Origin: Pirellulimonas nuda
Lineage (GTDB): Bacteria; Planctomycetota; Planctomycetia; Pirellulales; Lacipirellulaceae
Direction of reading: 5' to 3'
Assembly: GCF_007750855.1 (NCBI RefSeq)
Contig: NZ_CP036291.1
Coordinates: 2,852,001-2,916,000, forward strand
DNA: 64,000 bases
Below, in pieces: positions 2,353 through 64,000 of this stretch. A program made the position numbers and the translations under genes. Under the pieces are notes generated by a model. That model was given only the letters and a program-made list of their open reading frames with translations, did no database searches and had not been told where the DNA came from. Positions within the stretch are counted from its first letter, which is position 1. Each line of letters opens with the position of its first letter.

Positions 2353-3636
2353 CTACGGGTTCCATTCCGCTTTCTGAAGTGACAGCAGTTTTTCTACGAT
2401 TTCTGGATGTTCGCTGGCAACGTCGTTCTCTTCCAACGGGTCCGCCGCGAGGTTGAAAAGCGCCGTTGCGGAGGGGACCGACGAAAACGGACGATCGGGG
2501 TTCACCGGACCGGGGGCAATCAGCTTCCACTGGCCATCGATCACCACTTGAGCAATGAGGCTCTTCTCGGGCGCGTCCAGGTCGGCGATGTCGTGGGTGT
2601 ACGACTCGACGAAGACGGTTTGACGTGCTTGCATCGCTTCGCGATCCGTCAGGTTCAACCCGGCCAGGCTCTCGCTTCTTGCGACGCCGGTGGCGTCCAG
2701 AATCGTGGGAACAAAATCTATGATGTGGGCCAGTGTGGCGTCGTCGCGCGCGGGCGCCACTTTTCCGGGCCAGCGTACGAACATCGGAGTGCGGATGCCG
2801 AGCTCGTAGGGCGACAGCTTGGCGCGGGCCTTGGACTGGCCGTGCTTGCCGTCCCAGCCGTTGTCCGCGAGATACAAGACGACGGTGTTCTCTTTGAGCC
2901 CATGCTCTTCCAGGTACTGGTCCAGCTGCCCGCAGGTTTGGTCAAACCACTCCACCATTGCGTAGTACTTCTCCGCAGCGGGCGTCGGACCCCTGCCCCG
3001 GTACGCGTCAAGGATCTCCTTGGGCGGGGTATGCGGCACGTGGGGCATGAACGGTGCGTACCACACGAAGAACGGCGCCTTCTGCTTTTGAGCGGCGTCG
3101 ATGAACTCGAAGATGGGCTCCATGCCCTGGCGTCCGATGCCCAGTCCGGCGTCGCCGTGGCGTCCGGCGGTATCGGTCATCCCGTGGGTAAAGCCCGCGT
3201 CTGCATAGGTGACGTTCCACAGTTTGCCCGTTTGCAGGGTCAAGTAGCCCGCATCGGTGAGCATCTTGGGCAGCAATGTGGGGCTGCTGAGTAGCTGCTC
3301 GGCCAGCTCGCCGCGTTGACCGCGGCTCGAGCGATTGTCGGAGAGGTCGTTTCCAGTAATCCGGTGCTCGTGGGGAAGTTTGCCGGTCAGCAGGCACGCC
3401 AGCGACGGCGAGCAAACGGGCATGACGTAGCCGCGCGTGTACAGCAGGCTCTCACCCGCCATTCGGTCCAGGTTGGGCGTCTGAACCTCTTCATTGCCCA
3501 TGAAGCCGTAGTCCGGGAATCCTTGGTCATCGGAAATGATGAGGATCACGTTAGGCCGCGTCGGGGTCTCCCCCTGCCCACGGCCAACCCAAGAGAGCAG
3601 GATCACAGCCGTCCATATCAGAAAGGGGGTCTTCAT
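2353..3636 (-). CDS. Secreted type I sulfatase with CxPSL active-site variant
   Basis: This is a 427-aa sulfatase that would hydrolyse sulfate esters, probably in the periplasm or outside the cell. An N-terminal signal peptide (about residues 1-22) precedes the metal-binding block NVILIISDDQG (D36, D37). The formylglycine signature is CSPSLACLLTG with the cysteine at 75. The usual Arg after PS is Leu here, a variant I recall from other planctomycete sulfatases. HVPHTPP and VVLYLADNGWDGKHGQSKA give the later metal and substrate motifs, and the C-terminus has the usual LFNLAADPLEENDVA block. Length is at the short end for the family. The next gene upstream (HEAT protein, start 5628) is on the same strand with an 81-bp gap. 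The substrate cannot be told from sequence. Confidence 0.9.
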   Translation of the reverse strand: MKTPFLIWTAVILLSWVGRGQGETPTRPNVILIISDDQGFPDYGFMGNEEVQTPNLDRMAGESLLYTRGYVMPVCSPSLACLLTGKLPHEHRITGNDLSDNRSSRGQRGELAEQLLSSPTLLPKMLTDAGYLTLQTGKLWNVTYADAGFTHGMTDTAGRHGDAGLGIGRQGMEPIFEFIDAAQKQKAPFFVWYAPFMPHVPHTPPKEILDAYRGRGPTPAAEKYYAMVEWFDQTCGQLDQYLEEHGLKENTVVLYLADNGWDGKHGQSKARAKLSPYELGIRTPMFVRWPGKVAPARDDATLAHIIDFVPTILDATGVARSESLAGLNLTDREAMQARQTVFVESYTHDIADLDAPEKSLIAQVVIDGQWKLIAPGPVNPDRPFSSVPSATALFNLAADPLEENDVASEHPEIVEKLLSLQKAEWNP

Positions 3637-11418: not shown

Positions 11419-12831
11419 GGCTCGTTTCCTTGAGAGAAGTCTTCCAAGACCCGGCGGTGAGGAGTTCCTACGGCGACCTAACCTGACGCGTACGTCCCGC
11501 GGTCGCCGACTGCATTGAAGGGTTCAAGAACGCCGCAAAAGTTTCAAAAAAAGCTGTGTTCGATGGTGGCCAAAGAACTGTGACAAGCGGTCCGCGTCGT
11601 CACTGAGGCGGCGCGGGCGGATTCCTTACTTGAGCGAATGCCCAATGCTGAGGAGTTACTTCCGAGGGGAAGAAAACTGGACAGACAAAAATGGCTCTCT
11701 TTGCCAGATTCTGTCAGATTCTCGATCTGGTGTCAAAAAGTTGCCCGCTGAGCCGCGACGTGTCGCCAGGTTGTTCGAACGCGAGGTCGGAGCGACCGCT
11801 TATGCCGCCCGCGGCTGCGCGTAAGTGAGGGGCAGGCCGGCCCGGATACTCATCGTGGTGTCGCTTGATCTCGGCGACGCATGCGGGGTCTTGCGAAGGG
11901 TGTTTAGGTGCCGTGGGTCTCGGGATAGGCGACCGGCCGCTGCAAAGGCGAACCTTTGGAGCAGGCGTGAACGTAATCTCTTTGACGCAGATACTTCTTT
12001 CTATGGTGGCCTGCTTGCTTCCGACGGCGCCCCGCGAGCATCGCGTGGGCGAACCTCGAAGGGGTCTCGCCACTAGCCGCCGCAAGCCCTCGGGTGCCGA
12101 GTCTCATGGCGGAACATGACCGCGGCTTGTTGGAAAGCAAACACGCAACCAGCGCGTACTCAGCGGAATGTCAAAGATTGCCCGCGGGGCGGCTGCAATT
12201 GCGATCGCCGACCAAGACTAATGTTTCAATGGAAACGCTGGGACTCTTGTGTTCCAATTAGTTTTGGTAGACCTGGGGACGGTTGCTTTCGGGTGGCGAA
12301 GGCGCCCTCGGTCGCCGGGGCCCTGAGGTCCGCAAGGTTCGGGCCTCGGGGGGCACCAGGTCGGCGGTGCGGCTGTCCGACGCTTCGCTTTCGGCTCTCA
12401 GAATCTACTCTTCTCTGCTTTTTTGCGATCTCAATCAGGCTAGGAAATGCAATGCAGACGTGCGTGGGCAAGGTGTTTCTGCATCCTCATGCCGGCTCTG
12501 TCCTGCGTTGTTTCGAGCGACGGACAGCCCTTTGCCTCGCCCTTGCTCGATTGGCGGAAGCGCTTGGACTCGGCTCGGTCGCCCCAGACCCGAATAGGTC
12601 CTACCGCAGCTCGCGCTCGCTTCGGCCCAACTCCCCCAGGCCGCTCGAGTCGAGCGTCTTGTCGAACAGCGCGATCTCGGCTGGCCGTGGACCAGGGTCT
12701 GCGGAGCAGGCTCGGCAAGGCTCTGTGGCAGGGGGCGAACAGTTGCTGAGGGGGCGGTTCGCCAGGCTGGCGAATTGGGTTCTCGCGATGCAAGCGTCGG
12801 CGGTTGGCAGCCGCAACACGAAGGGGTCGAT
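11419..12831. other. Gene-free stretch, 1.4 kb
   Basis: This is the divergent upstream region of the DUF1559 gene (minus) and the sulfatase gene (plus). Long frames such as 12116-12835 plus exist but translate to Arg/Ala-rich sequence without motifs. A short frame around 11600-11750 (plus) reads RADSLLERMPNAEELLPRG and looks protein-like, but it ends in a stop and matches no family I recognise. The Shine-Dalgarno aagggg at 12821-12826 belongs to the sulfatase. Confidence 0.5.
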
Positions 12832-14316
12832 ATGAAGCACCTTTGGCGCCTTCCGCAAGTCGCCGTCTGCTCACTTGCGTTGTTGTGCGTGCTGAGTCAC
12901 GGCATGCCATTCGATGCACAGGCGGACGGGCAACCGAACGTCTTGCTGTTCTTCGTCGATGACCTTCGGCCTGAGCTGGGCTGCTACGGCCAGCACGACA
13001 TCAAGAGCCCGAATATCGACGCGTTAGCTCTCGGGGGGGTCCTCTTCGAGCGTGCCTATTGCCAGCAAGCCATCTGCGCCCCATCGCGAGCGAGCATGAT
13101 GGCTGGGCAGTATCCGGATACGCTTGGCATCTACGACCTGTGGTCGCCGCTGCGTCGCACGGTTCCCGGCGTGATGAGCATGCCGCGCTACTTTCACGAG
13201 CGCGGCTACGAGACCTCATCGTTTGGAAAGGTCTACCATCACCACTCCGACGATCGAGAATACTGGTCAAAGCTGCCCGATGTTCCAGGGGTGATCTACG
13301 CGAATCCACAAACCCTGCGATCGATCACCCGGCGCCACAGAGAAGCACGAGCCAAGGGGCTGACGAAACTCGCGTTGTCGTCTGCCACCAAGGGCCCTCC
13401 CTGTGAAGCGGCGGATGTCGAGGACGATGCTTACCGCGATGGTGCAGTCGCTCAGCAAGCGATCGATGCGCTGCGCAGCTGCGACAGCCCCTTCTTCATG
13501 TGTGTCGGGTTCGCCAAGCCGCATCTGCCCTTTTCCGCGCCCCAGCACTACTGGGACCTTTACCGGCGCGAAGACTTTCATACGCCCGATCGCGACGTTC
13601 CCAAAGCGTCGCCGGATATCGCCTTCACCAATTGGGGCGAGCTGCGGTCCTACGAGGGGATGCCGGAGGAGGGGCCACTGAGCGACGCGCAGACGTGCGA
13701 GCTGATGCACGGGTACGCTGCTTGCGTGAGCTACGCAGACGCACAGGTAGGGAGGGTGCTGGCCGAGCTCGATCGATTGGGGCTTCGCGACGGCACCATC
13801 GTCGTCTTGTGGGGCGACCACGGCTACAAGTTGGGCGAGTACGGCCTGTGGTGCAAGCACACCAACCTGGAGCTAGACGCCCACGTGCCCCTGATCGTGT
13901 CGGCGCCTGGATACGCGAAGGGTGAACGCGCCCAAGGTCTGGTCGAGATGATCGATGTCTTTCCGACCCTTGCCGCGCTCACCAACGGTTCGGCGCCGGC
14001 CTCCTGCGAAGGGCGAAGCCTTGAGCCAATGCTCAAGGACCCCCGCACCACGATCCGCCCCTACGCACGGAGCCAGTACCCGCGAGGCTCGACAATGGGC
14101 TATAGCCTTCGGACCGACCGCTGGCGATACACCGAATGGGTGGCCTCGCCGAGCAAAAGCATCGTGGCAAGAGAGCTCTACGATCATCGCGACTCCCAAA
14201 CGCCGGGGCGGAACCTGGCCGATGAGCCAGGGCGTCAGGAGCTCGTTTCAACGCTTTCCAAGCATCTCGATTCGCGAAGTCGCATCGCGCCGCGGGCGTC
14301 GAGAACCGGGCAATAG
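12832..14316 (+). CDS. Secreted type I sulfatase, iduronate-2-sulfatase-like
   Basis: This 494-aa sulfatase starts at the ATG at 12832 (AAGGGG 6-7 bp upstream) with a signal peptide of about 31 residues. The metal-binding block is NVLLFFVDDLRPELGCYG. The formylglycine signature CAPSRASMMAG (Cys82) is canonical. The overall order (VDDLRPELGCYG, then CAPSRAS, GKVYHH, DDREYWSK, KPHLPFSAP, LWGDHGYKLGEYGLWCKHTN) is that of iduronate-2-sulfatase-type enzymes, which remove 2-O-sulfate from uronic acids. GH10-like and LamG genes follow on the same strand (69-bp gap to the next gene). That specificity would suit a sulfated polysaccharide containing iduronate, such as ulvan, but this is inference. Confidence 0.92.
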   Translation: MKHLWRLPQVAVCSLALLCVLSHGMPFDAQADGQPNVLLFFVDDLRPELGCYGQHDIKSPNIDALALGGVLFERAYCQQAICAPSRASMMAGQYPDTLGIYDLWSPLRRTVPGVMSMPRYFHERGYETSSFGKVYHHHSDDREYWSKLPDVPGVIYANPQTLRSITRRHREARAKGLTKLALSSATKGPPCEAADVEDDAYRDGAVAQQAIDALRSCDSPFFMCVGFAKPHLPFSAPQHYWDLYRREDFHTPDRDVPKASPDIAFTNWGELRSYEGMPEEGPLSDAQTCELMHGYAACVSYADAQVGRVLAELDRLGLRDGTIVVLWGDHGYKLGEYGLWCKHTNLELDAHVPLIVSAPGYAKGERAQGLVEMIDVFPTLAALTNGSAPASCEGRSLEPMLKDPRTTIRPYARSQYPRGSTMGYSLRTDRWRYTEWVASPSKSIVARELYDHRDSQTPGRNLADEPGRQELVSTLSKHLDSRSRIAPRASRTGQ

Positions 14317-14385: not shown

Positions 14386-16296
14386 ATGATCCTCGCCGTC
14401 GTCTTCAACCGCCGTGCCGCTCGCATATTCGGCCCATGCCGCCTTGGTGGTCTGACGATGATCATCTTGGCGCTTTGGTCGCTATTGAGCGGGGCGGTTG
14501 CTCGCGCCCAGCCGATCACGTTTCCGCGGGGGGGCGCCGATGTGGTTGCGTTCGGCCAGGATGAGCCGTTGCGGTTCCGCACCAAGGGCATTGAGGCGAC
14601 GGGTGCGTGGACGCCTATCGAGGGCATGCCGTTCCGGGAGGCGTATCGCGTCGAGTCAGGCACGCGGATCACCGACCGCAAGAACGTGCAGGTGACGATC
14701 CCGATTCGAGAACCGGTGCGAAAGGGAGATGTCCTGCTCCTGTCGTTCTGGACGCGTCGCCCCAACGCCGGCGGTCAACCCAACAACGTCTATTTCTGCA
14801 TCGACCCCGGGTCCGCACCTCACGGGTTCGAGTACCAGCTATCGGCGTACCGTGAGTGGAAGCAGCACGTGCGTTCGTTTGTGACGCGTCAAGACCTCGA
14901 CCCAGATAGCAGCAGCGTCCACATCGACCTGGGCGAGGCGGGAACGGTCGCCGAGGTCGCCGACTTGCGGCTCATCAACTACGGTCCCGATCGGGCCCCC
15001 GACACGCTCCCTAGATCAACGGTGGTGTACCGGGGACGCGCTGCCGATTCGGCTTGGCGTGCAGAAGCGCTGGATCGAATCGAGAGGATCCGCAAGGGCG
15101 CCCTGGTCGTGCGAGTCGTCGATGCCCAAGGCGACCCAATTCCCAACGCCAGCGTCACCGTCGTGCAGCAGAGGCACGCATTCGGGTTCGGCGCCGCGGT
15201 GAACTCAGAAGTCCTGGGCGCCAAAGAAAGCGATTTCCCGGTCCAGCCCAAGGGCAAGCTGAGCGTCACATGGGAGGATGCCCAGAGGTACCGTGAGGTC
15301 GTTAGGAAGTACTTCAATCGCGTGGTGTTCGAATCGGAGCTCCGTCCAGGCAACTGGGCGCTGATGAGGCGCGGCCAACCCGGTTGGGTACGCAGGCATG
15401 ACATCTTAATGAACAGCACCCTCCCCTGGCTCAACGCCAATCGCATCGCGGCGCGCGGCCACTATCTCGGGTGGGCGCCGATGGACTTCAACGAGGTCGA
15501 GAAGCCGTTTCTTGGCGACCCACAGGCCCATAAGGCGTGGCTGTGGGGACACATGGCCGATGTGCTGCCTGAAACAGCTGGGTACGTCGCCGAATGGGAC
15601 GCGATCAATCACATTGTCGGCTGGGGCAAACACACGTACGAGCAAGAATACGGTGGGCTAGAGATCTACGCCGAGATACTCGCCGAAGCCCGACGCCTGG
15701 CGCCGGGCGCTGCCCACGCGATCAATGAGGGCAAGGTCTTGCCCGATGGCTACAAACGCGAGCCCTACAAACGGATCATCCGTTTTCTAAACGAAGAAGG
15801 CCAAGCCCCGGACCTTGTTGGCTTCATGGCCCACTTTGACCTGAGCACTCTGACGCCCCCCGAAGAGCTGCTGGAGGTCTACGACGATTTCGCCAAGATA
15901 GCGCCCCGGCTTCAGCTGAGTGAACTCGACGTCGAGGTGGGCGACGACGAAGCCCTGCAGGCGGACTACTACCGCGACGTCCTGATCGCCACCTTCAGCC
16001 ACCCCAATATCGAGGCAATCGTGCAGTGGGGGTTTTGGGAGCCAATGCACTGGAAACCCGCCGCCGCATTGTGGCGTGACGATTGGACCCTCAAGCCTGC
16101 CGGAGAGGTCTTCGTCGACCTGGTCGCCGGCCAATGGTGGACCAATGAAGAATTGACGACCAACCGCCAAGGGAAGTGCCGGCTGCGGGGGTTTCTTGGT
16201 GACTATCGCGTAACCGCCCGGCACGACGGAGTCGCGAGTACCAAGGAGGTCGCGCTCCGCCGCGAAGGCTCAAAGCTTCTCATACAACTGGAGTGA
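14386..16296 (+). CDS. GH10-like glycoside hydrolase lacking the usual acid/base Glu
   Basis: This is a 636-aa exported protein. A signal peptide is clearest from Met25 (ATG at 14458); the upstream ATG at 14386 is the longest option. Residues about 45-210 form a carbohydrate-binding-like beta domain and about 240-580 a GH10 TIM barrel. The nucleophile region is conserved as LQLSELDVEV (Glu513). Where xylanases have W-D-V-V-N-E, this protein reads WDAINHIVGW, with His409 instead of the acid/base Glu. WGFWEPMHWKP corresponds to the last barrel strands. It may be a non-hydrolytic binding protein, use another acid, or act on a substrate with an acidic leaving group. It follows the sulfatase gene closely and is probably in the same transcript. 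Confidence 0.82.
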   Translation: MILAVVFNRRAARIFGPCRLGGLTMIILALWSLLSGAVARAQPITFPRGGADVVAFGQDEPLRFRTKGIEATGAWTPIEGMPFREAYRVESGTRITDRKNVQVTIPIREPVRKGDVLLLSFWTRRPNAGGQPNNVYFCIDPGSAPHGFEYQLSAYREWKQHVRSFVTRQDLDPDSSSVHIDLGEAGTVAEVADLRLINYGPDRAPDTLPRSTVVYRGRAADSAWRAEALDRIERIRKGALVVRVVDAQGDPIPNASVTVVQQRHAFGFGAAVNSEVLGAKESDFPVQPKGKLSVTWEDAQRYREVVRKYFNRVVFESELRPGNWALMRRGQPGWVRRHDILMNSTLPWLNANRIAARGHYLGWAPMDFNEVEKPFLGDPQAHKAWLWGHMADVLPETAGYVAEWDAINHIVGWGKHTYEQEYGGLEIYAEILAEARRLAPGAAHAINEGKVLPDGYKREPYKRIIRFLNEEGQAPDLVGFMAHFDLSTLTPPEELLEVYDDFAKIAPRLQLSELDVEVGDDEALQADYYRDVLIATFSHPNIEAIVQWGFWEPMHWKPAAALWRDDWTLKPAGEVFVDLVAGQWWTNEELTTNRQGKCRLRGFLGDYRVTARHDGVASTKEVALRREGSKLLIQLE

Positions 16297-32006: not shown

Positions 32007-33491
32007 TCAATGAGCGTCGCATCGTGTGCGGAGCTGTTCTAGCTGGCTTGCGTGGCGAGGGACCTCAGCAAGGTTCTTCAGCTCCAGGGGGTCGTGTTCG
32101 AGGTCGAAGAGCTGCTCGTAGACGGGGTCGGTCTCTGGGTAGCGGATGTACTTCCATCGCTGCGTTCGGACGCCCTCGGTGACCGCGATGGACAGGCGTG
32201 GCGGGTCCGGGGTATAGACGTGCCGGTAGTAGAAGTCCTCGCGCAGCGGGGCCTCGGGTTCGCGCAACACGGGCGTCAGATCGCGGCCTTGCATCGACGC
32301 CGGCGGGGCAATGCCGGCAAGCGAAAGCATCGTCGGCGCCAAGTCGATGCTGAGCGCCATCTGATCGCGGGGCTGTGTGGCGTTCTTGGACGGGTTCCTG
32401 GGATCAAGAATGATCAGCGGGACCCGGATAGAGTTCTCGTACATCAGCCACTTCCCCGTCAGGCCATGGTCGCCCAGCAAGCTGCCGTGATCGGAAGAGA
32501 AGATGACGATCGTGTTTTGGTCCAGCTTGAGACGTTTGAGCGCAGCCAGGATTTCTCCGACGGCTGTGTCGGCGCGCGTGACCGTGCGGTAAAACGTCCG
32601 CAGCTCTTGCTGGTAGCGCTGCGGGTGGTTCAGGTACCCGCGGCTGTTGTCTGCGTTGAGCGACGTCTTGATGAATTCGGGCTGGTTCTCAAAGGCTTCC
32701 GGGTTGAACGTGGGCGAAGGGGGAAGCTCCACGTTCTCGTACGGGTTGGGGGCCGCGGGATCGAAATAGTTGAACGGGCCATGCGGTTCCTTGAAGGCGA
32801 CCGTCAAACAGAACGGCTGCTCCGCCGGATTGGATTGCAGGAACGCGATTGCTTTCTCCGTCATGACCTCCGTTAGGTAGCGCGGCTCGCCATCCACCTT
32901 CTGAAGGAAACGGATGCTCTGAGGGAAACCGTACCAGGCGTCGAACCGGTCGGCGGGGAGGGAAAGCGGCTTCGTGTTCCCCGACGGGTTTCCGATCGCG
33001 TACTTGCCCAGGTAGCCCGTACGGTAGCCCGCCTCTCGCAGCAAGGCAGGGTAGGTCTGATCAAAGGCTTCTGCGCTCAGTGGCTGCTTGAAGTCCTCGA
33101 TGCCGTGGCGGTCCATCGTCTGACCGGTCAAGATGCAAGCGCGATTGCTGCAGCAAATCGCCGTCGTCACAAAGGCGTTGTTGAACAGCGTGCCTCGTCG
33201 CGCAAGGGCGTCCAGATGCGGCGTTTGGATGGCGTCGTTGCCCATCGCGCCCAAGCAGTTCTGCGGCTGGTCGTCGGTGAACATGAACAGAATGTTCGGG
33301 CGGACGTTTTCGTTTGGCGGGCTGGGTTTGTCTGCAAGGCCCTGCTTGACTGCGAGGCCGGGTTCGTCCGCGAGGCCGGGTTCGCCTGCGAGGCTGGGCT
33401 TGTCGACCCAGCCGAGGAGCAAGCCGACGGCGAGAAGCAACGCCTTCCCAAGCACGCACGTGAACGCGGCGGGTTGAGCCGGATGGGTCAT
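32007..33491 (-). CDS. Secreted type I sulfatase with CCSNR signature and N-terminal hexapeptide repeats
   Basis: This is a 494-aa sulfatase. The start at 33491 has GGAAAG about 8 bp upstream and gives a signal peptide (FTCVLGKALLLAVGLLLGW). A stretch of six-residue repeats (DKPSLA, GEPGLA, DEPGLA, VKQGLA, DKPSPP) follows directly. The catalytic domain has NILFMFTDDQPQNCLGAMG and the signature AICCSNRACILTG: Cys113 should become formylglycine, but the Pro/Ala and Ser positions are Ser and Asn while Arg117 is kept. KEPHGPFNYFDP and IFSSDHGSLLGDHGL supply metal and substrate motifs. The C-terminus ends with a YEQLFDLEHDPLELKNLA block. It is divergent from the esterase-PSD1-DUF1501 operon with a shared 169-bp upstream region. 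Confidence 0.9.
   Translation of the reverse strand: MTHPAQPAAFTCVLGKALLLAVGLLLGWVDKPSLAGEPGLADEPGLAVKQGLADKPSPPNENVRPNILFMFTDDQPQNCLGAMGNDAIQTPHLDALARRGTLFNNAFVTTAICCSNRACILTGQTMDRHGIEDFKQPLSAEAFDQTYPALLREAGYRTGYLGKYAIGNPSGNTKPLSLPADRFDAWYGFPQSIRFLQKVDGEPRYLTEVMTEKAIAFLQSNPAEQPFCLTVAFKEPHGPFNYFDPAAPNPYENVELPPSPTFNPEAFENQPEFIKTSLNADNSRGYLNHPQRYQQELRTFYRTVTRADTAVGEILAALKRLKLDQNTIVIFSSDHGSLLGDHGLTGKWLMYENSIRVPLIILDPRNPSKNATQPRDQMALSIDLAPTMLSLAGIAPPASMQGRDLTPVLREPEAPLREDFYYRHVYTPDPPRLSIAVTEGVRTQRWKYIRYPETDPVYEQLFDLEHDPLELKNLAEVPRHASQLEQLRTRCDAH
33315..33404 (-). repeat. Five imperfect 18-bp tandem repeats inside sulfatase gene
   Basis: Units of 18 bp at 33315, 33333, 33351, 33369 and 33387; the third and fourth differ at three positions (tgcgaggccgggttcgtc / cgcgaggccgggttcgcc). 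They encode six-residue repeats between the signal peptide and the catalytic domain and keep the frame. Confidence 0.85.
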
Positions 33492-33660
33492 CGTAATTCT
33501 TTCCGAAGGTACGGAAATTGCGTGCGTTGGGCACAAATCGGTATGAATCGTCAAGACGACTATTGTAGACTGTGGCCAGCGACGCGGCCGTCGCGGGTGT
33601 CGCGGCCTTCGGGAGTGTCGTTGGGAGTGTCGTTGACGCCTGCTACGAGGAGTTGTGCTG
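33492..33660. promoter_or_regulatory. Divergent promoter region with a 12-bp tandem repeat
   Basis: This 169-bp space between the minus-strand sulfatase and the plus-strand esterase must hold both promoters. It contains an exact tandem duplication gggagtgtcgtt at 33611-33622 and 33623-33634, 26 bp before the esterase ATG, and the ribosome binding site gaggag at 33647-33652. No -35/-10 pair is convincing. Confidence 0.5.
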
Positions 33661-34569
33661 ATGGTCTCCCAGCATACTACCCGCTCCATCGTGATCTGGC
33701 TTTCGCTCGCGAGCGTCGCCACACGCGCTGTTGCGGTTGAGCCCACCGCCAAGGAATCCCCGGGCGCCTTTGGCGCCGCACGCGTGATCGCGCTGTACGA
33801 CGGCGCCGCGCCGGGTTCTGAAGGCTGGGACTACGAGGAGAAAATCGTCCAAGGGCGGAGTGGCCCTCAGGTCCGCAACGTCGTGCGGCCGACCCTGCTG
33901 TACTTTCCCGCAGCCAAGCCAGTGGGCGCCGCCATGCCAGCGGGCGCCGCCATGATCGTCGCTCCCGGCGGGGGCAATCGGACGCTGATGATGGGTTACG
34001 AGGGAGTCGATATCGCCAAGCGACTCAACGCGTCGGGCATCGACGCGTTCGTCTTGAAGTACCGGCTCAAACAGACCGGCGACGGTGCGGATAGCGCCGA
34101 GCCCGCCGCCCTCGGCCCACAAGCCGGTCAGGACGTCCGGGCGTTGTCTGCAGAGGATGGACGCAGGGCGGTAGAGCTGGTCCGGTCACGTGCCGAGGAG
34201 TTTCGCCTCCGGCCCAACCGGATAGGAATGATCGGGTTTTCGGCGGGGGGTGGGCCCGTGCGAGGCGCGATGTCCGGCGACGCGGGCGCTCGGCCAGACA
34301 TCGCGGCGTTGATCTACGGCGCCGGCCGATCTGGCGAGAAGGCAACGGCGCCGGACCACGCGCCCCCCTTGTTCTTGGCGGTGGCTGCCGACGATCCCAA
34401 CGTCGAGGCGTCCATCGCAACGTTCATGGCGTGGCGAGCCGCGGACGCGCCGTGCGAGCTGCACGTGTTTCAGATGGGCGCCCACGGGTTCGTCGACCAG
34501 GGGGGTGGCGCCGATCACTTCATGGATCGATTGGTAGAGTGGATCCAGGTTAACGGTTGGCGCCCATGA
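33661..34569 (+). CDS. Exported alpha/beta hydrolase (esterase/acetylxylan-esterase-like)
   Basis: This is a 302-aa protein starting at the ATG 8 bp after GAGGAG; a GTG two codons earlier is too close to it. A signal peptide ends near TRAVAVEPT. The fold is alpha/beta hydrolase: an oxyanion loop APGGG, the nucleophile in GMIGFSAGGG (Ser194), an acid candidate in VAADDPNVE, and the catalytic His in QMGAHGFVDQG. Planctomycete relatives are often labelled acetylxylan esterase or 'xylanase B-like', and de-acetylation of a polysaccharide is a reasonable guess. An 18-bp duplication (33919-33954) adds PVGAAM/PAGAAM before the oxyanion loop. The stop overlaps the ATG of the PSD1 gene (ATGA), showing translational coupling. 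Confidence 0.85.
   Translation: MVSQHTTRSIVIWLSLASVATRAVAVEPTAKESPGAFGAARVIALYDGAAPGSEGWDYEEKIVQGRSGPQVRNVVRPTLLYFPAAKPVGAAMPAGAAMIVAPGGGNRTLMMGYEGVDIAKRLNASGIDAFVLKYRLKQTGDGADSAEPAALGPQAGQDVRALSAEDGRRAVELVRSRAEEFRLRPNRIGMIGFSAGGGPVRGAMSGDAGARPDIAALIYGAGRSGEKATAPDHAPPLFLAVAADDPNVEASIATFMAWRAADAPCELHVFQMGAHGFVDQGGGADHFMDRLVEWIQVNGWRP
33919..33954 (+). repeat. 18-bp tandem duplication in the hydrolase gene
   Basis: Two units, ccagtgggcgccgccatg and ccagcgggcgccgccatg, differ at one base and encode a six-residue repeat just before the oxyanion loop. Confidence 0.85.
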
Positions 34570-38678: not shown

Positions 38679-39476
38679 CTAACTGGAATCCCTTCTCAGC
38701 ACGTTCCAGCAGACGAGACATTTTCCGAGATTGAGGAAGCCTTCGTGGATGTCGGCCCGTCGGTCGAAGCGGATCCTGAGGCGTTTGAAGTGATGCAGCC
38801 AAGCGATCGTCCTTGCAACGACCCAGCGGTAGAAGCCCCGTCCGCCGCCATGCTCGTCGCCACGGTGGGCGATGTCGGGCGCGATCCCGAGCCGCTCCAG
38901 CAGCAACCGGTTGGCGTCATCGTCGTAGGCCCGGTCGGCGAACGCAACGTCGGGCCGCGACCGCGGATGCCCTACCTTGCCGCGGACCGGAGGGATCTCC
39001 GCGATCAGCGCGGCCGTGGGCTTGCCGTCGTGCGAGTTGGCGGCCAAAAGCTCGGTCTGCAGCGGCACGCCATTGCCATCGGTGGCGAGGTGGTGCTTAC
39101 TGCCGGGCTTCCGGCGGTCGGTAGGGTTGGGGCCGGTCTCTTCGCCACCCCCCCACAGCGCGAACCGTGCCGCTATCGACCCCACACGCGACCAGTCGGT
39201 CTCTTCGGAGGCGCTAAGCTCGGCCAGCAGCAGCTCGTGGAGGCGGTGCCACACGCCGGCTTCTTGCCAGTCGCGGGCCCGCCGCCGCCAGGTCATGCCG
39301 CTGCCGCAGCCCATCTCCTGCGGGAGCATCTCCCAAGGGATGCCCCTCTTGAGCACGAACACGATGCCGGTAAGCGCGGAACGGTCGTCCACCGGCGGCC
39401 GACCCCCTTGGGGTCGCTCGGAGATCAGCGGCTCGATCTTCGTCCACAACTCGTCACGAACCAACGGTCCGGCCAT
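38679..39476 (-). pseudogene. IS5 transposase with two compensating frameshifts
   Basis: The open frame is 265 aa and starts MAGPLVRDELW after GGAGG. It has the IS5 N-domain (PVDDRSALTGIVFVLKRGI, PWEMLPQEMGCGSGMTWRRR) and late DDE motifs (PNPTDRRKPGSKHHLATDG, DVAFADRAYDDDANRLLLER). Where the first catalytic Asp should be, it reads VGSIAARFALWGGG. The same bases one frame over read GVDSGTVRAVGG, the expected motif. A one-base loss near 39180-39186 and an extra base in the C7 run at 39148-39154 therefore cancel in length, but destroy the catalytic Asp. The element should be immobile unless helped in trans. Confidence 0.75.
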
Positions 39477-39511
39477 CATGCGCCTCCAAGAGAGAGAGAA
39501 GGGGGATCCAG
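38683..39511 (-). mobile_element. IS5-family element, inactive
   Basis: Imperfect inverted ends: ctggaatcccttctc at the left (38683-38697) and gagaagggggatccag at the right (39496-39511). One transposase frame lies between them. The left end sits 52 bp after the DUF1501 gene; the right end overlaps the tip of the neighbouring ISAs1 element by 3 bp. Confidence 0.65.
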
Positions 39512-43133: not shown

Positions 43134-43202
43134 GGAATCTTCCTGCGGTTAGTGTTACGCTAACCACCACGCTGGGAAATTCCAGTTCCGACTGAGGCAG
43201 GA

Positions 43203-43389: not shown

Positions 43390-43455
43390 GCGTTAGCCCA
43401 GTACATTCGGACAGCGTCGGGGACGGGATAATTTTCCCCACAGGAGGTCCGAGTT

Positions 43456-44768: not shown

Positions 44769-47700
44769 ATGACTAAAGTCTTCCCCATTCTGGCCTCGTT
44801 CGCGTTTGCGTTGGCGTCAACCGCCCACGCAGAAACCCTGGAAGCGGGTTTCGCGCACCCGCCGCAACAGCGCCGCCCCGAGACCTGGTTTCATTTGATT
44901 AGCGGCAACGTGAACAAGGCGGCCCTCACGGTCGACCTCGAGGCCGTCGCGTCCGCCGGGATGCAAGGGATCCAGCTCTTCCACGGGGCGGGCAGCCCTT
45001 GGCCGGGGGTCAGCCCGCAGATCGAAACCCTTAGCCCGGCCTGGGACGACATGATCGCGCACGTCGCCAACGAGGCCCGTCGCCTTGGACTCCGGTTCAC
45101 GATGCAGAACTGCCCCGGTTGGGCCATGTCCGGCGGGCCGTGGATCACGCCGGGCAACGCGATGCGCCATATCATCTGGAGCCGCGAGGTTGTCGAAGGT
45201 GGTTCGAGGGTCGCACTCGACCTCGCGATGCCCCAACCCAGTCGAGAAGCGTGGCGCGACTACCGCGACATCGCCGTGCTGGCGTTTCCCACCCCCGCCG
45301 ACGACGATCGGGAGTGGTTAACGCCGGTGGAGGTCCGCAGCAACCGCAGCGAACTTGCTTGGGCCGACCTGATCCGAGGCAAGCGCCAGTCGTCTGTGAG
45401 GGTAGAGCCGGCCGATGAGCCGGCCTGGGTCGAGGTCGCCTTTGCCGAGCCGACGCACCTCCGCTCGATCAGCCTGCCTCCCGTAGAACTGCTGATGGCT
45501 CGGAGGAACTTTGACCCGGACTCACGTATTCGCGTCCAGGCGTTGGTTGATTCTCACTGGAAGGACCTGACGACGCGCGAGATCCCGCGCGGCACGTGGC
45601 AAGATCGGCAACCGGAGCACCCATTGGTGCTTGCGATCGCCGACACAAGAGCCCTCAAGTTCAGGATCGTGTTTGAGAACAAGCATCCGATCGAGCTGAC
45701 CGAGCTAAGATTCTCGTCGGCCGCCCGCGTGAACGACTGGCAGGGTCAGGCGGCGTTCGCCCTACGCAGTCAGGATCGCAGCCCGCCCCCTGTGCAGGAC
45801 ACTGCTGCATGGGTCCGGGTAGACTCGATCGTGGACCTCAGCGACCGCCTCGATGCTACCGGGCGCCTGAGCTGGCCGGCGCCTCCGGGCGGGTGGACGG
45901 TGCTTCGCTTTGGCCACGTAAACACCGGCGCCAAGAACAAACCGGCGCCACCTGAGGCGACCGGCTTCGAGTGCGACAAGCTCTCGCCGGGCGGCGCCGA
46001 GCAGCACTTCGCCGGTTACATCGGGCGGATCAGCGCCAACGGGGGCCCGGCGGACGGCGGTCGGCTCGGCGGGATGCTGATCGATAGCTGGGAGTGCTAC
46101 ACCCAGACCTGGACGCCGGCGATGGAAGCCGAGTTCGCCCGCCGCCGGGGGTACCCTCTTCGCGCGTGGCTCCCGGGGCTCGCGGGGTACGTGCTGGACG
46201 ACCATCGCACCAGCGAACGCTTCCTGCGCGATTGGCGGAAAACGATCAGCGACCTGCTGGTCGAGAACTACTTTGGCCGGTTGGCCGAGCTGGCGCGCGG
46301 GCGTGGGATGATGTTGTCGTTCGAGACGGCCCTGGGCGACGTATCGCCCGGCGACATCCTTCAGTACTTCGGCAAGGCGGACATACCGATGTGCGAGTTT
46401 TGGCAGCCCAACGACCCGCATCAGGGTGGGCTCGAGACCAAGCCGGTGTACCCCGCCGCCTCCGCGGCCCACATCTACGGCAAGCCAACGGTCGCGGCCG
46501 AAGCGTTCACCAACGTGGGGCACGACTGGGACAACCACTTCTTCGAGTTCAAGCACCTCGCCGACGCGCACTTCGCGCTCGGCATCAATCACTTGGTCTT
46601 CCACACCTACACCCACAACCCGCTCGATCGGGTTCCCGGCACTTCGTTTGGAGGCAGGATCGGGTCGCCCTTCATTCGCGGGCAGACCTGGTGGCGCCTC
46701 ATGCCGCACTTTACGGACTACCTCGCGCGATGCCAGTACATGCTGCAACAGGGCCATCCGGTTGCCGACGTGTTGTGGTGTCTGGGGGATGACGTTGACC
46801 ACAAGCCTCGTCAGGACAGCCCATTCCCTGCGGGATACAAGTTTGACTACGTCAATCAGGACGTCTTGCTCCATCGGCTCCGCGTGGTCGACGGCGTGGT
46901 TCAATCGCCCGAAGGGTTGACGTGGAGGGTCTTGTGGCTGCCTCCGCAGCAGTGCGGTCGGTTGACGGCAGCCACGCTTCGGCGGTTAGAGGAACTGCTG
47001 CGCGACGGTGCGGTCGTCGTCGGCGGGCCTCCCGAGCTCGATCCTTCCCTGTCGGAGGGCGGTGATTTCGATACGCTAAGGGCCGCCCTCTGGGGCGACC
47101 GGCCGGCGACCGCCGGCGACCGCACCGTCGGCAGCGGGCGGCTGATCTGGGGCGGCGGGTTGGAGGATTCGTTGAGACGGCTTGGCGTCGCGCCCGACGT
47201 AACCGGCGCGGGAAACGCGGTCTGGATCCATCGGCGTGTGGGCGACACCGAGATCTACTTTGTTGCTGCCAGCAGGGACTCCATCCTCGATACGAACCTC
47301 TGCTTCCGCGCCGTCGGTACGCCCGAGTTTTGGGACCCGCTCACCGGCGCCGTGACTCCGGCCTCGGTCTTCAAGCAGGCCGGCGACAAGACGATTCTCC
47401 CCATCCAATTGCCGGCAGCCGGATCGCGTTTTGTCGTGTTCCGCCCGGGGGCGGTAGCGCCCGCGTTCACGAAGGTAGAACGCGACGGACAAGCACTGGT
47501 CGAGACGTCAGCGCCCGGCCAGCAGAACAGGACAACTCCGGAGAGGCCCTTCGGCCTGCGACCCGGCCAACCCCTCCAACCCTGGATTGAGCTCCCCTAC
47601 CCCGAGTTTGAGCTGCTCGATCGCGGCCAGCGTCTGCTCGCCTGGGAGAATGGCGACTACAAGCTCACCCGATCCGATGGTCGATCGTTCTCACACAGGG

Positions 47701-48212
47701 TTACCGGGGCTCGCTCGATGGGCCTTTCTAACCCCTGGAAACTATCGTTTCCCGGCGGCTGGGATACGCTAGGCGAGGTCGAGCTCCCCCGCCCCGCGCC
47801 TTGGTCCGAGCTCGGCGATGCCGCCAGCCGAGCGTTCTCCGGGACCGCAACGTATCGAACCAGCGTCACGCTCGGCCCCCTCTCCCCGGACGCGAGGCTG
47901 CTGCTGGACCTCGGCCGCGTCGCCAACGTGGCCGAAGTTAGCGTGAACGGCCGCTACGTGGCCACCTTGTGGGCGCCCCCCTTCCGCGCCGAGATCACTC
48001 CCGCGGTGAAAGAGGGGGAAAACCTCATTGAGATCCGGGTGACCAACACCTGGCACAACCGGCTGGTCTACGACGCCTCGTTGCCGGCGGATCGGCGAAG
48101 GACATGGACGCTCGACGGCCCCGGCGCTGATTCTCCGACGATTGATGCCGGGCTGCTTGGGCCGGCTACGATCCGTGTGGGGAGCGTTCACGAAAATCGT
48201 CCTGGTACGTAA
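44769..48212 (+). CDS. GH106-type alpha-L-rhamnosidase
   Basis: This is a 1147-aa exported glycoside hydrolase; the signal peptide ends ASTAHAETL. The start of the mature protein (PPQQRRPETWFHLISGNVNK, GMQGIQLFHGAGSPWPGV, FTMQNCPGWAMSGGPWI) is typical of GH106/BT0986-like rhamnosidases. It continues with a TIM barrel (LGGMLIDSWECYTQTWTPAM, MMLSFETALGDVSPGDI, PTVAAEAFTNVGHDW, THNPLDRVPGTSFGGRIG) and a C-terminal galactose-binding-like sandwich (VAEVSVNGRYVATLWAPPFR, NLIEIRVTNTWHN). These enzymes remove alpha-L-rhamnose and need calcium. An intact IS3 lies 79 bp upstream and a GH78-fusion relic beyond it, so the gene was probably once part of a rhamnoside cluster. No clear Shine-Dalgarno precedes the ATG. 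Confidence 0.9.
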   Translation: MTKVFPILASFAFALASTAHAETLEAGFAHPPQQRRPETWFHLISGNVNKAALTVDLEAVASAGMQGIQLFHGAGSPWPGVSPQIETLSPAWDDMIAHVANEARRLGLRFTMQNCPGWAMSGGPWITPGNAMRHIIWSREVVEGGSRVALDLAMPQPSREAWRDYRDIAVLAFPTPADDDREWLTPVEVRSNRSELAWADLIRGKRQSSVRVEPADEPAWVEVAFAEPTHLRSISLPPVELLMARRNFDPDSRIRVQALVDSHWKDLTTREIPRGTWQDRQPEHPLVLAIADTRALKFRIVFENKHPIELTELRFSSAARVNDWQGQAAFALRSQDRSPPPVQDTAAWVRVDSIVDLSDRLDATGRLSWPAPPGGWTVLRFGHVNTGAKNKPAPPEATGFECDKLSPGGAEQHFAGYIGRISANGGPADGGRLGGMLIDSWECYTQTWTPAMEAEFARRRGYPLRAWLPGLAGYVLDDHRTSERFLRDWRKTISDLLVENYFGRLAELARGRGMMLSFETALGDVSPGDILQYFGKADIPMCEFWQPNDPHQGGLETKPVYPAASAAHIYGKPTVAAEAFTNVGHDWDNHFFEFKHLADAHFALGINHLVFHTYTHNPLDRVPGTSFGGRIGSPFIRGQTWWRLMPHFTDYLARCQYMLQQGHPVADVLWCLGDDVDHKPRQDSPFPAGYKFDYVNQDVLLHRLRVVDGVVQSPEGLTWRVLWLPPQQCGRLTAATLRRLEELLRDGAVVVGGPPELDPSLSEGGDFDTLRAALWGDRPATAGDRTVGSGRLIWGGGLEDSLRRLGVAPDVTGAGNAVWIHRRVGDTEIYFVAASRDSILDTNLCFRAVGTPEFWDPLTGAVTPASVFKQAGDKTILPIQLPAAGSRFVVFRPGAVAPAFTKVERDGQALVETSAPGQQNRTTPERPFGLRPGQPLQPWIELPYPEFELLDRGQRLLAWENGDYKLTRSDGRSFSHRVTGARSMGLSNPWKLSFPGGWDTLGEVELPRPAPWSELGDAASRAFSGTATYRTSVTLGPLSPDARLLLDLGRVANVAEVSVNGRYVATLWAPPFRAEITPAVKEGENLIEIRVTNTWHNRLVYDASLPADRRRTWTLDGPGADSPTIDAGLLGPATIRVGSVHENRPGT

Positions 48213-59936: not shown

Positions 59937-61197
59937 CAGGGCGATTGCGCCACGCTGGGTAGTCTGCGAGACTTACGGCGAGTCGAACATGATTTCGTTG
60001 GGAGCGCCGCTTGCGTCATGTTTGCGTTCTTGCCGGAGGGATTGTTGTGGCCGAGGTTTCCGAGGCAGGGATCGCGAGGCATTTCGAGGGGCTAACCGAT
60101 CCGCGTCGGCGTGAGCCGATCTACCCGTTGGTGAACGTTGTGGTGATGGCGTTGTGCGCGGTCCTAAGCGGGGCGGACGACTTCGTGTCGATCGCCGCGT
60201 GGTCGAGGGAGAAGAGAGGGTGGCTGGCGAAGTTCTTGGACCTGTCGGCGGGCGTGCCTTCGCACGACCGCTTCAACGCGGTCTTCGCGGCCCTCAACCC
60301 GGCCGAGTTCGAGAAGTGCTTCTTGAGCTGGGTCACCGCGCTGCATGAGGTCACCGACGGCCAGGTGATCGCGATCGATGGTAAGACGCTGCGGCGCAGC
60401 TTCGACGCAGCGAGCAGCAAGGCGGCGATCCACATGGTGAGCGCCTGGGCGACCGCCAATCATATCGCCCTGGGGCAGGTCGTCACCGACGCCAAGAGCA
60501 ACGAGATCACAGCCATCCCAAGGCTGCTTGAGATGCTGGAAATCAAGGGGTGTTTGGTGACCATCGACGCGATGGGGTGTCAACGGGAGATCGCCGAGCG
60601 GATCGTCGAAGGGGGCGGCGACTACGTGCTGGCGACCAAGGGGAACCAGCCGAACTTGTGCGAAGCGATCGATGCGTTCTTCACCGCGCAACTGGAAGAC
60701 GACTGCCGGAACGTGGCGTGCCGACGGCACGAGTCGCACGAGAAGGGGCACGGCCGCGAGGAAGACCGTTACTACTACCTGACGAAGCTGCCGGAGGGGT
60801 TTCCCGAGCGTGAGAAGTGGCGTGGGCTCAAGGCGATCGGCATGGCGGTCCGCATCACCACCCATAGCGACGGCGCACAGACATTCGACACGCGCTACTA
60901 CATCACTAGCCGCTACATGAGCGGCAAGAGGTTCGCCGAGGCGGTGCGCGGCCACTGGGGGATCGAGAACTCACTCCACTGGCAGCTCGACGTGACGTTC
61001 GGCGAAGACCAATGCCGCGTCCGCAAGGGACACGCCGACGCCAACTTCAGCCTGCTGCGCAGAACGACGCTGAGCCTGCTCAAGAACAACACCTCCCGAA
61101 AGCTCGGCGTAAAGAACAAACGCCTCACCGCGGCATGGTGCGATCAGTACCGACTCGAAGTGCTCTGCGGGGCATGAGTTGACGTGCAATCGCCCTG
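59937..61197 (+). mobile_element. Intact ISAs1-family element, 1261 bp
   Basis: Perfect 12-bp terminal inverted repeats CAGGGCGATTGC at 59937-59948 and 61186-61197, with one full transposase gene inside. Flanks (ctccgggt left, ggtggggc right) do not show a clear target duplication. Its right end interrupts the 3' end of the minus-strand sulfatase gene. Confidence 0.88.
60047..61177 (+). CDS. ISAs1-family transposase
   Basis: This 376-aa protein starts at GTG 60047 with GGAGGG 6 bp upstream. The N-domain (FEGLTDPRRREPIYPLVNVV, MALCAVLSGADDFVSI) is followed by DDE-type motifs: VIAIDGKTLRRSFDAA, CLVTIDAMGCQREIAERIVE, and AVRGHWGIENSLHWQLDVTF with the presumed catalytic Glu, then EDQCRVRKGHADANFSLLRR. 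Length and motifs are complete, so the element is probably active. The frameshifted copy at 39524-40691 is a diverged relative. Confidence 0.93.
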   Translation: MAEVSEAGIARHFEGLTDPRRREPIYPLVNVVVMALCAVLSGADDFVSIAAWSREKRGWLAKFLDLSAGVPSHDRFNAVFAALNPAEFEKCFLSWVTALHEVTDGQVIAIDGKTLRRSFDAASSKAAIHMVSAWATANHIALGQVVTDAKSNEITAIPRLLEMLEIKGCLVTIDAMGCQREIAERIVEGGGDYVLATKGNQPNLCEAIDAFFTAQLEDDCRNVACRRHESHEKGHGREEDRYYYLTKLPEGFPEREKWRGLKAIGMAVRITTHSDGAQTFDTRYYITSRYMSGKRFAEAVRGHWGIENSLHWQLDVTFGEDQCRVRKGHADANFSLLRRTTLSLLKNNTSRKLGVKNKRLTAAWCDQYRLEVLCGA

Positions 61198-62579
61198 GGT
61201 GGGGCGTCGTTCATACAGAGCTGCCTGAGCAGCTCGTACGGCAGGGGCTGAGCCTCCTTCTGCAGGACCGTGTCGTCGTGCAGGTTGATGGCGTACTGGG
61301 GACCGGGGCTTCCATACTCGCCGTTGCCGCTGCCGACGAACAGCGTCTGCTCGACCGGGCCCCCGACGGTCTCTTGGATCAGATTGCGGATGTAGTAGTA
61401 GCGGCCGTCGCATACGGCGCGTGCCATGGTTGTGGAGCCGTTGCCCGGGGCCGACATAAAGCTGTTGTTGGTTTCGGTCATGACCGTGCGGCGGCCGGCC
61501 ACCCGGTCCGCCTGGCCGCCTAGGATCGGCCACAGCGATCTCCCCTGACAGGCCGCGGTCGGTTCGATCCCCAACGCTTCCAGAAAAGTCGGGTTGAAGT
61601 CCATCTGCGAGATCGGGGCAGAAATCACCCGCCCCCCTTCCACGTCGGGGCCGCGAACAAAACAGGGGACCTGCGTCCCCGCCGGGTAGACGCTGGTCTT
61701 GCCTCGCTGAACGGGGATGCCGTGATCGCCCGTGAACACCACGAGCGTGCGGTCGGCCTCTCCGCTGGCCTCGAGCCGGTCCAACATGCTACCGACAAAC
61801 GCGTCGATGTTGCGTACGTTGGAGTAATACTGGGCGACATCGATCCGCGCCGCCGGGGTATCGGGGAGCCATGGGAGCATGCCGATCGCCGCGGGATCGA
61901 CGTCGTTGGGGGCCGAATTGCGGTCTTTGGGGTTGACCAGCTTGTGCTGGATCGACTTCCAGAACGGGGCGTGGGTGTCCCCCGGGTTGCACCAGAACAG
62001 CCACGGTTTGTCCCCGGCCGCCGCGATCACCTCGTCGATGTCAGCCGCGTCGACAAACACGTCGTACGGAAAGTTGCGGGCCGGTTGGACGTGCAGCTTG
62101 CCGGAGAGGGCGCAGTACACGCCGTTCCTTTTGAGGAGCTGGATGAGGGTTGGCAGGTCTTCGTGCATGCCCCCTACGCCGGTGTTCGAGGGGTCGTTCT
62201 CGGGCGTGAGGGGCGACGCAAGGGGGATCCAGTTGTCCGGGCCCCCCCGCGAGCCGTGCCGGTTGAACACGTTCCGCCAAATGCCGTTTGCGTGCGGCAG
62301 CATCCCGCTGTAGATAGCGCTTTTGCTGGGTGAGCAGACGCTCTGCCCACAGAAGGCGTGTGTGAAGTTGACCCCCTCGCGGGCGAGCGCGTCTAGGTGG
62401 GGGGTCTGGAGCCCGGCGATCTTGGCGGCGGGCTCGCGGGCGGCTCGCTCGCTCGTGTAGTAACCAAGGTCCTCAACGTAAATGAATAGCACGTTCATGC
62501 GCCGGTCTTCGGCCGTCGCCAGCTGAACCTGGCCGAGGCAGGTGACCAGCACTGTAAGCGCGCTTGCAAGGCGGTTCAT
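61125..62579 (-). CDS. Secreted sulfatase, C-terminus cut off by ISAs1
   Basis: This is a 484-aa reading frame. The signal peptide (VLVTCLGQVQLATAEDRR) precedes NVLFIYVEDLGYYTSERAAR and the signature CSPSKSAIYSGMLPH (Cys82), with Lys in place of the usual Arg. LSGKLHVQPARNFPYDVF and VVFTGDHGIPVQRGKTSVYP supply the metal/substrate motifs, pointing to the heparan N-sulfatase-like branch. After MNDAPPR the sequence from 61197 leftward belongs to the ISAs1 tip, adding about 24 foreign residues (AIARQLMPRRALRVGTDRTM). The usual C-terminal block 'LYDL..DP.E..NLA' is missing. The enzyme may be unstable or inactive. A 53-bp gap separates it from the next sulfatase, transcribed in the same direction and lying upstream. 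Confidence 0.85.
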   Translation of the reverse strand: MNRLASALTVLVTCLGQVQLATAEDRRMNVLFIYVEDLGYYTSERAAREPAAKIAGLQTPHLDALAREGVNFTHAFCGQSVCSPSKSAIYSGMLPHANGIWRNVFNRHGSRGGPDNWIPLASPLTPENDPSNTGVGGMHEDLPTLIQLLKRNGVYCALSGKLHVQPARNFPYDVFVDAADIDEVIAAAGDKPWLFWCNPGDTHAPFWKSIQHKLVNPKDRNSAPNDVDPAAIGMLPWLPDTPAARIDVAQYYSNVRNIDAFVGSMLDRLEASGEADRTLVVFTGDHGIPVQRGKTSVYPAGTQVPCFVRGPDVEGGRVISAPISQMDFNPTFLEALGIEPTAACQGRSLWPILGGQADRVAGRRTVMTETNNSFMSAPGNGSTTMARAVCDGRYYYIRNLIQETVGGPVEQTLFVGSGNGEYGSPGPQYAINLHDDTVLQKEAQPLPYELLRQLCMNDAPPRAIARQLMPRRALRVGTDRTMPR

Positions 62580-62632: not shown

Positions 62633-64000
62633 TTATCGACCGCGAGCTGGTTCTCTGAGCTGCACACCGACCGATCGCTTCTTGGCCCGCGCCAACGAAG
62701 CGGGTTCGTCCGAGACCTTCTCGCGCGCTCCAGGCCCGATCCTGCCCACGGCGTTGTAGATCGGTGCATACTTCGGCTCGCGCTCGCCCGGCTTGAGCCG
62801 CAGCCGCACGTCGGGCCGCTGGGCGTAGGCCTTCTGTAGCGCAAGCATCTCATTTAGTCGTGTGGGATTGGAAGCGGCCAAGTCGTGGGTTTCGCTGCGG
62901 TCGTCGGTCAAATCATAGAGTTGCCACGGCTGGTCGTAGGCGGTTACCATCCGCCAGCCGCCGTCGACGATCGCCATGTTGTTGAACAGCGAGAAGTAGA
63001 GCGGCTTAGGGGCGAGTCGCTCTCCCGCGGTCAGCACTTGCGCGAACGAGCGGCCCGGCAGTGGCGGATGCTCTTTGCCGCGAAAGTCGCGTGGGTACCG
63101 GGCGCCGGCGAGCTCGATCAACGTCGGGAGGACATCGGTGATGTGCAGCGGCTGATCCTCGAACGCCGCTCTTGGCTCAATGGCGCTCGGCCAGCTCGCA
63201 ATGAAGGGTGTCGTCACACCGCCACTGTGCTGCGTCCGCTTGTAGTACTTCAGTGGGGTGTTCGATGCGTGCGCCCAACCGACGCCGGTATTCCAGGTTG
63301 TGTTGGGCGTGCCGAACTCGCCGCGGCGAACTCGGTCGTTCGGGCTGGCGCCGTTGTCGTTCATAAAGATGACGAGCGTGTTGTCGGCGACGCCCAGTTC
63401 ATTCAACGTATGCGTCAGCCTGCCAACGCCCTGGTCAACGCAGTCGACCATTGCGGCGTAGGTCGCCATGCGGAGGTCTTCGAAATCGCGTGATTTCACG
63501 TCGAGCGAGTTCCAGGCCGGGATGTTCGCCGGTCGGTCGGGGAAGTTCCAACCAGGCCCCGCCAGCCCGAGTGCTTGCTGCTTGGCAAAGCGCGCTTTGC
63601 GGATCTCGTCCCAACCCGACAGGTATTTCCCGCGGTACTTAGCGACCTGGTCTGCGGGCGCCTGGATCGGCGAGTGGGGCGCGTTGTAGGCCAGGTAGAG
63701 GAAGAACGGCTGGTCCGGGTGTGCGGCGTGCTCTTGGCGGATGAACTTGTCTGCGTAGTCGGTCAGCGCGGTGGTGACGTAGAAGTCCTCCTTGGGCACG
63801 GGCCAGGGACGGCCGTCGAGAGTGAAAGAATCATCGCCCAGAAAGAAGTTCGTGCCTCCCCCCATAAAGCCAAAATGACGGTCGAATCCGCGTTCGAACG
63901 GCACGCCTGCGCAGTGCCATTTGCCGACCATCATCGTTCGGTAGCCCGCGGTCTGGAGGACCTCGCCGAAGTTGGGGCTGTCTTTCCTGACCGCGACGTT
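62633..64000 (-). CDS. Arylsulfatase-like protein, 5' end outside window
   Basis: 456 codons are visible; the start codon and the formylglycine signature lie beyond the right edge. Present are VLQTAGYRTMMVGKWHCAGV, GFDRHFGFMGGGTNFF, YLAYNAPHSPIQAPADQVAK, a calcium-site block VIFMNDNGASPNDRVRRGEF, LKYYKRTQHSGGVTTPFIAS and the C-terminal QLYDLTDDRSETHDLAASNP. These are typical of type I arylsulfatases (S1 family). It ends 53 bp upstream of the truncated sulfatase, so both are probably in one transcript. The C-terminal tail (KKRSVGVQLREPARGR) is basic. Confidence 0.88.
   Translation of the reverse strand, partial: NVAVRKDSPNFGEVLQTAGYRTMMVGKWHCAGVPFERGFDRHFGFMGGGTNFFLGDDSFTLDGRPWPVPKEDFYVTTALTDYADKFIRQEHAAHPDQPFFLYLAYNAPHSPIQAPADQVAKYRGKYLSGWDEIRKARFAKQQALGLAGPGWNFPDRPANIPAWNSLDVKSRDFEDLRMATYAAMVDCVDQGVGRLTHTLNELGVADNTLVIFMNDNGASPNDRVRRGEFGTPNTTWNTGVGWAHASNTPLKYYKRTQHSGGVTTPFIASWPSAIEPRAAFEDQPLHITDVLPTLIELAGARYPRDFRGKEHPPLPGRSFAQVLTAGERLAPKPLYFSLFNNMAIVDGGWRMVTAYDQPWQLYDLTDDRSETHDLAASNPTRLNEMLALQKAYAQRPDVRLRLKPGEREPKYAPIYNAVGRIGPGAREKVSDEPASLARAKKRSVGVQLREPARGR

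Follow-up and report, generated by a model that had tools for sequence, protein, structure and literature searches.

Relatives in bacteria and haloarchaea share the histidine found at the acid/base position of a GH10-fold protein from Pirellulimonas nuda

GH10 is a textbook retaining family in which the acid/base glutamate is taken as invariant. Within the window, a stretch of 64,000 nucleotides of the Pirellulimonas nuda genome (contig NZ_CP036291.1, positions 2,852,001 to 2,916,000), one gene product departs from this rule: the protein P0001 reads WDAINH from residue 404 on, with His409 at the place of the glutamate. Is such a protein a damaged xylanase or a catalyst of another kind? The preliminary description of the locus held that the protein should be almost inactive on ordinary glycosides, an expectation drawn from ordinary xylanase mutants. 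We find that the swap is no lone defect but a trait of a conserved class in which the −1 subsite is otherwise preserved. Its conservation in both bacteria and archaea suggests a variant catalyst that works, with sulfated sugars containing rhamnose as the probable substrate here.

The reading frame of P0001 (Table 1) contains no internal stop, and the opposite strand is interrupted by stops in the frame read. Pfam GH10 (PF00331) matches residues 297-576 with an E value of 2e-20 and a score of 73.7 bits (cut-off 22.1), and CarboxypepD_reg matches a weak stretch over residues 241-268. The region of about residues 45-215 gave no match in a Pfam scan at E 1, and an NCBIfam scan of the protein gave none at E 1e-5. 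We modeled residues 216-636, with 17 GH10 domains from viral contigs and two close relatives added to the window protein as input, and obtained a GH10 barrel with a pLDDT of 92.5 and a pTM of 0.89. An earlier model built from 3 sequences had been discarded because its pLDDT was 46.8; its N-terminal strands were of low confidence. The best solved match of the retained model is the GH10 xylanase XynA (7d88), with a Z score of 41.7 and an rmsd of 2.4 over 361 aligned residues. The VIA-align matches listed for the model are GH10 xylanases or designs on the GH10 fold, that Z score being the highest, and the top two Foldseek hits are the GH10 xylanase 8b73 and 7d88, in that order. P0001 therefore has the profile and the fold of GH10, together with the nucleophile in SELDVEV from residue 512 on, and lacks the acid/base glutamate that follows the asparagine of WDVVNE. 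On these features it descends with GH10 and would be expected to act in the same manner, and we file it only as a variant without the acid/base glutamate.

Table 1. Features of the window, in window coordinates
Feature	Position	Strand	Basis or remark
Sulfatase	2353..3636	-	
S1-type sulfatase, CAPSR motif	12775..14316	+	Probably starts at 12832; Pfam Sulfatase, E 7.6e-44
GH10-fold His-type protein P0001	14386..16296	+	636 aa; from the sequence, a later ATG at 14458 (Met25) may be the true start
Probable export signal, residues 1-41, hydrophobic MIILALWSLLSGAVARA	14386..14508	+	Judged by eye from the sequence
N-terminal region, residues about 45-215	14518..15030	+	Common to several relatives (alignments from query residue 64-82)
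Modeled region, residues 216-636: small beta domain, GH10 barrel, C-terminal beta domain	15031..16293	+	Structure model
His409, codon CAC, GH10 acid/base place (WDAINH)	15610..15612	+	Sequence and alignment
Glu448, carboxylate invariant in the His class, within INEGK (where ordinary GH10 has NDY)	15727..15729	+	Sequence and alignment
Glu513, nucleophile, codon GAA (SELDVEV)	15922..15924	+	Sequence and alignment
GH78-type alpha-L-rhamnosidase, extra C-terminal region of ~270 residues	26781..30731	+	
Sulfatase	32007..33752	-	Residues within 32007-33602 scanned
GH106 alpha-L-rhamnosidase	44769..48212	+	Pfam E 1.1e-180
Sulfatase	61125..62579	-	
Sulfatase	62633..63934	-	N-terminal part beyond window

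The preliminary description had called for an alignment with GH10 and related proteins. That alignment places histidine at the position of the acid/base glutamate, as it had reported, but the feature is not private to P0001. From 148 domains found, we retained 122 rows (query included); the window's own copy, near duplicates and fragmentary domains were removed, and viral-contig domains excluded. The acid/base column of these GH10-like domains holds Glu in 86 rows, His in 33, Asp in 2 and Pro in 1; because the loci were chosen for their similarity to the query, 33/122 does not represent a population frequency. The proline is that of L005 (WDITHP), whose histidine aligns one place earlier and which joins the His rows only for the trees, making 34. 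A hand count on the locus lists traces the 33 His rows to 27 genomes or records, and the identical histidine in all of them rules out a sequencing or frame artefact for His409.

Around this substitution the −1 subsite is kept: Asn408, His359, His483, the nucleophile Glu513 and Trp551/Trp556 are each present in 33/33 His-type rows. Both the GH10 fold with His409 in place of the glutamate and the retained nucleophile, as first described, are confirmed. Column 448 sets the class apart, with Glu in every His row compared with Asp in 61, Glu in 23 and Asn in 2 of the 86 Glu rows; apart from the nucleophile, Glu448 is the only glutamate invariant in the His rows whose column varies elsewhere. The neighboring column 449 is Tyr or Phe in 75/86 Glu rows versus 1/33 His rows, which mostly have Gly, Asp or Ala. 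This position equals Tyr196 of Thermotoga TmxB, a +1 subsite residue (PMC6163442; register checked on the 1vbr alignment), and on the column 449 pattern the changes cluster where a new aglycone would sit. Residues of the −2/−1 region are altered as well: TmxB Asn68, Lys71 and Gln228 are replaced by Ser, Arg and Met, respectively, in 13/13 ortholog rows each. Read from the alignment, the reaction centre is retained save for the acid/base, and the sugar-binding and leaving-group sides are both changed.

The His class was found in Planctomycetota, Verrucomicrobiota and two haloarchaeal plasmids. The genome collections contain a relative of P0001 at 73% in Bythopirellula polymerisocia and one at 54% in the verrucomicrobium Haloferula rosea. 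At E 0.001, 44 of 392 genomes sampled from the phylum have a match, and at 1e-20 so do 84 of 396 sampled from the order, 12 of these 84 with orthologs of at least 987 bits; both sets are samples from larger groups, and the first look scored at most three candidates per genome. In PLSDB, 21 plasmid records match P0001, and five were examined. The Halocatena marina (WDVINHP) and Halorussus vallis (WDMHNHP) plasmids encode His-type proteins, and the relatives on the Halomicrobium urmianum and Halocatena salina plasmids are Glu-type. The GH10 of a Haliscomenobacter hydrossis plasmid (L062 2380-4439, WDVVNEP) is split into two CDS with in-frame stops between them. A profile search of viral contigs for relatives of P0001 confirmed none. 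Other catalytic sites were also seen: L012 has WDVINDP, with Asp at the acid/base place, and L018 has WDVVADP and ITALGID, with both catalytic glutamates gone. The window's genome itself encodes a second GH10-like protein, L392 (G000:C1:804181-804480; 507-aa frame), which has WNVAARVNH and MVSAPSS at the catalytic places and looks catalytically decayed.

A tree computed without the motif columns places the His rows (34, L005 included) in three groups of 28, 3 and 3 and needs 3 changes, whereas a tree that holds all His rows together scores 19.4 log units higher and is not rejected, with a p-AU of 0.78. The class may have arisen once. We had considered repeated independent origin as proof of a coupling between the histidine and Glu448 and dropped it because the grouped tree scores higher at that p-AU. 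A sign test for the coupling on the tree has no power, and the link has few independent origins; for these reasons its Fisher value overstates it. With a single origin possible, the association is not countable as many independent events.

The genes around P0001 bear on its substrate. The S1-type sulfatase gene ends 69 bases upstream of the GH10 frame on the same strand, and the nearest rhamnosidase gene of the window lies 10.5 kb from the GH10 gene. Compared with solved structures, this sulfatase matches 6hhm_A at E 4.5e-122, followed by iduronate-2-sulfatases at 3e-69. 6HHM is P18_S1_7, which acts in ulvan breakdown as an endo-2-sulfo-D-xylose sulfatase, but S1_7 also includes a carrageenan sulfatase (PMC9096561). 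Within ~10 kb around 13 ortholog loci, we observed a sulfatase in 12/13, an S1_7-like sulfatase (at least 55% identity to that of the window) in 8/13 and a GH78 or GH106 rhamnosidase in 8/13, using rhamnosidase and sulfatase queries taken from the window and L001, a choice that favors L001, itself one of the 13. Among 18 Glu-type relative loci of the same order, the corresponding counts are 2, 0 and 0 (Fisher, orthologs against controls: p 7.6e-6 for sulfatase, p 1.6e-4 for rhamnosidase); 20 controls had been fetched, and L395 and L399, both without sulfatase or rhamnosidase, were removed as His-type. Nine other His-type loci include a sulfatase in 2/9 and a rhamnosidase in 0/9, which limits both this context and the substrate idea to the ortholog group.

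Single ortholog loci carry further sugar-related genes: a rhamnulose-1-phosphate aldolase (RhaD) at L370, a GH2 nearest to beta-glucuronidase models at L374 and a GH3 near beta-xylosidase models at L001, these last two under the cut-offs of their models. L371, L372, L376 and L377 have in common a BNR_4 protein that weakly resembles a BT3686-type alpha-L-rhamnosidase model (L372 copy checked). No gene of the window's genome, which is 95.9% complete, matched GH88/GH105 (PF07470) at E 0.001. Transposase- or integrase-like frames, identified by eye, lie in the sulfatase/rhamnosidase region at 38679-42102, 43764-44648 and 60011-61177; the stretch 43202-43390, which precedes the second of these, is 84% identical to part of the extra C-terminal region of the GH78 enzyme.

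From these features we infer, with confidence about evenly balanced, that P0001 is a secreted retaining beta-glycosidase of GH10 fold that uses His409 as general acid/base, perhaps with Glu448, and that the orthologs act on a sulfated rhamnose-containing glycan. Glu513 would attack the anomeric carbon as protonated His409, tuned by the adjoining Asn447-Glu448, gives its proton to the leaving oxygen; His409 would next activate the acceptor water. Glu448 may hold His409, a pairing suggested by their co-occurrence. The aglycone in the orthologs would probably be a sulfated L-rhamnose of an ulvan-like polymer, with a beta-xylosyl or beta-glucuronosyl unit linked to rhamnose. A glutamate would be repelled by an adjacent anionic sulfate, which a neutral or positive histidine would not, and without the +1 Tyr/Phe there would be room for the sulfated rhamnose unit. 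Against an ulvan substrate stands the lack of GH88/GH105 in the genome, unlike the usual ulvan lyase route.

Other assignments of the catalytic residues and of the reaction deserve consideration. Glu448 itself could be the real acid/base, with the carboxylate now on strand 5 instead of strand 4 and His409 left to position or tune it. The preliminary description had looked to a conserved glutamate elsewhere in the active site as the sign that would count against it, and Glu448 partly agrees with that in being invariant in the His rows and not fixed as Glu elsewhere. However, 84/86 ordinary relatives combine a normal acid/base glutamate with Asp or Glu in column 448, which points to another job, and the TmxB counterpart is absent from the cleft-lining residues listed in the portion of the report available (PMC6163442); we consider Glu448 an unlikely acid. 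It also appears improbable that the protein is a retaining phosphorylase or transglycosidase in which the histidine lets phosphate, a sulfated sugar or another anion attack the glycosyl-enzyme as acceptor. The hydrophobic N terminus of P0001 looks by eye like an export signal, and free phosphate is usually scarce outside cells, both of which count against phosphorolysis. The GH3 enzyme Nag3, by contrast, is a retaining phosphorylase whose activity is explained by its His acid/base (PMC8950772), and one must still reckon with a slow or transferring enzyme because an engineered E128H xylanase gave a covalent intermediate, going by the title of its entries (5gqd, 5gqe).

A catalytically dead protein that serves in carbohydrate binding or scaffolding would account for the loss of the acid/base glutamate, and decayed GH10 relatives such as L018 and L392 do exist. 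Unlike them, the His class keeps its nucleophile and most −1 residues in 33/33 rows, and the swap is retained across two bacterial phyla and haloarchaea. The binding-protein role offered in the preliminary description thus loses ground, and we give a dead protein only a small chance. Its suggestion of a lyase-like activity fares worse. Histidine is the base in some lyases, and the neighborhood suggests uronate-containing sulfated glycans on which it might act as a proton-abstracting base, but a nucleophile kept in 33/33 rows together with His359, Asn408 and His483, in a genome without GH88/GH105 to process unsaturated products, makes this reading very improbable.

If the favored reading of His409 as general acid/base holds, the class offers a natural experiment on a histidine acid/base in a retaining beta-glycosidase, in which hydrolysis, phosphorolysis or transfer, as well as tolerance of an anionic aglycone, could be compared. 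The most specific form of the proposal is a GH10-derived clade in bacteria and haloarchaea with a natural His(-Glu) acid/base, whose orthologs are endo-hydrolases of beta-linkages in an ulvan-like sulfated rhamnan and thus a hydrolytic alternative to ulvan lyases; taken whole, we regard it as rather unlikely. Were the substrate guess true, the orthologs could provide a way to break into polymers of sulfated rhamnose by hydrolysis. His-type proteins are annotated plainly as endo-1,4-beta-xylanases, both haloarchaeal members among them, and a conserved natural swap makes such annotations unsafe. Searches of the open-licence literature, a scope that could miss a paper in a subscription journal, gave no report of a natural GH10 protein with histidine at the acid/base place and no role for GH10 on ulvan.

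An engineered Ser-His mutant of GH10 is reported to perform azidolysis. The Streptomyces olivaceoviridis xylanase mutant T82A/N127S/E128H (5gqd, 5gqe) likewise has histidine at the GH10 acid/base place, and, as far as its entries describe it, the histidine fits that site. It differs in being engineered, in having Ser before the His and an ordinary +1 site, and in having, by title, a trapped covalent intermediate; the natural class keeps Asn408, has Glu448 and is missing the +1 Tyr. That a Glu-to-His change in an ordinary GH10 is, going by these titles, one used for trapping an intermediate speaks against our favored reading. XynA (7d88) shares with the P0001 model the fold over 361 residues, the N- and C-terminal flanks, the nucleophile and the −1 residues, and differs in that its identity is 26%, its acid/base Glu is present and its NDY motif has Asp; 7d89 is its double mutant E182A/E280A. 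The ulvan genes of Formosa agariphila include P18_S1_7, the nearest solved relative of the sulfatase adjoining the GH10 gene (PMC9096561 for the name), and differ from the window's genome in the matter of GH88/GH105. Nag3, an N-acetylglucosaminidase/phosphorylase, shares the His acid/base of a retaining beta-glycosidase (PMC8950772) but belongs to another family and fold organisation and is unrelated by sequence as far as tested. Finally, the GH117 3,6-anhydro-galactosidase, acts on an algal glycan with a His/Asp dyad serving as the general acid (PMC11574756), although it is an inverting enzyme of another family.
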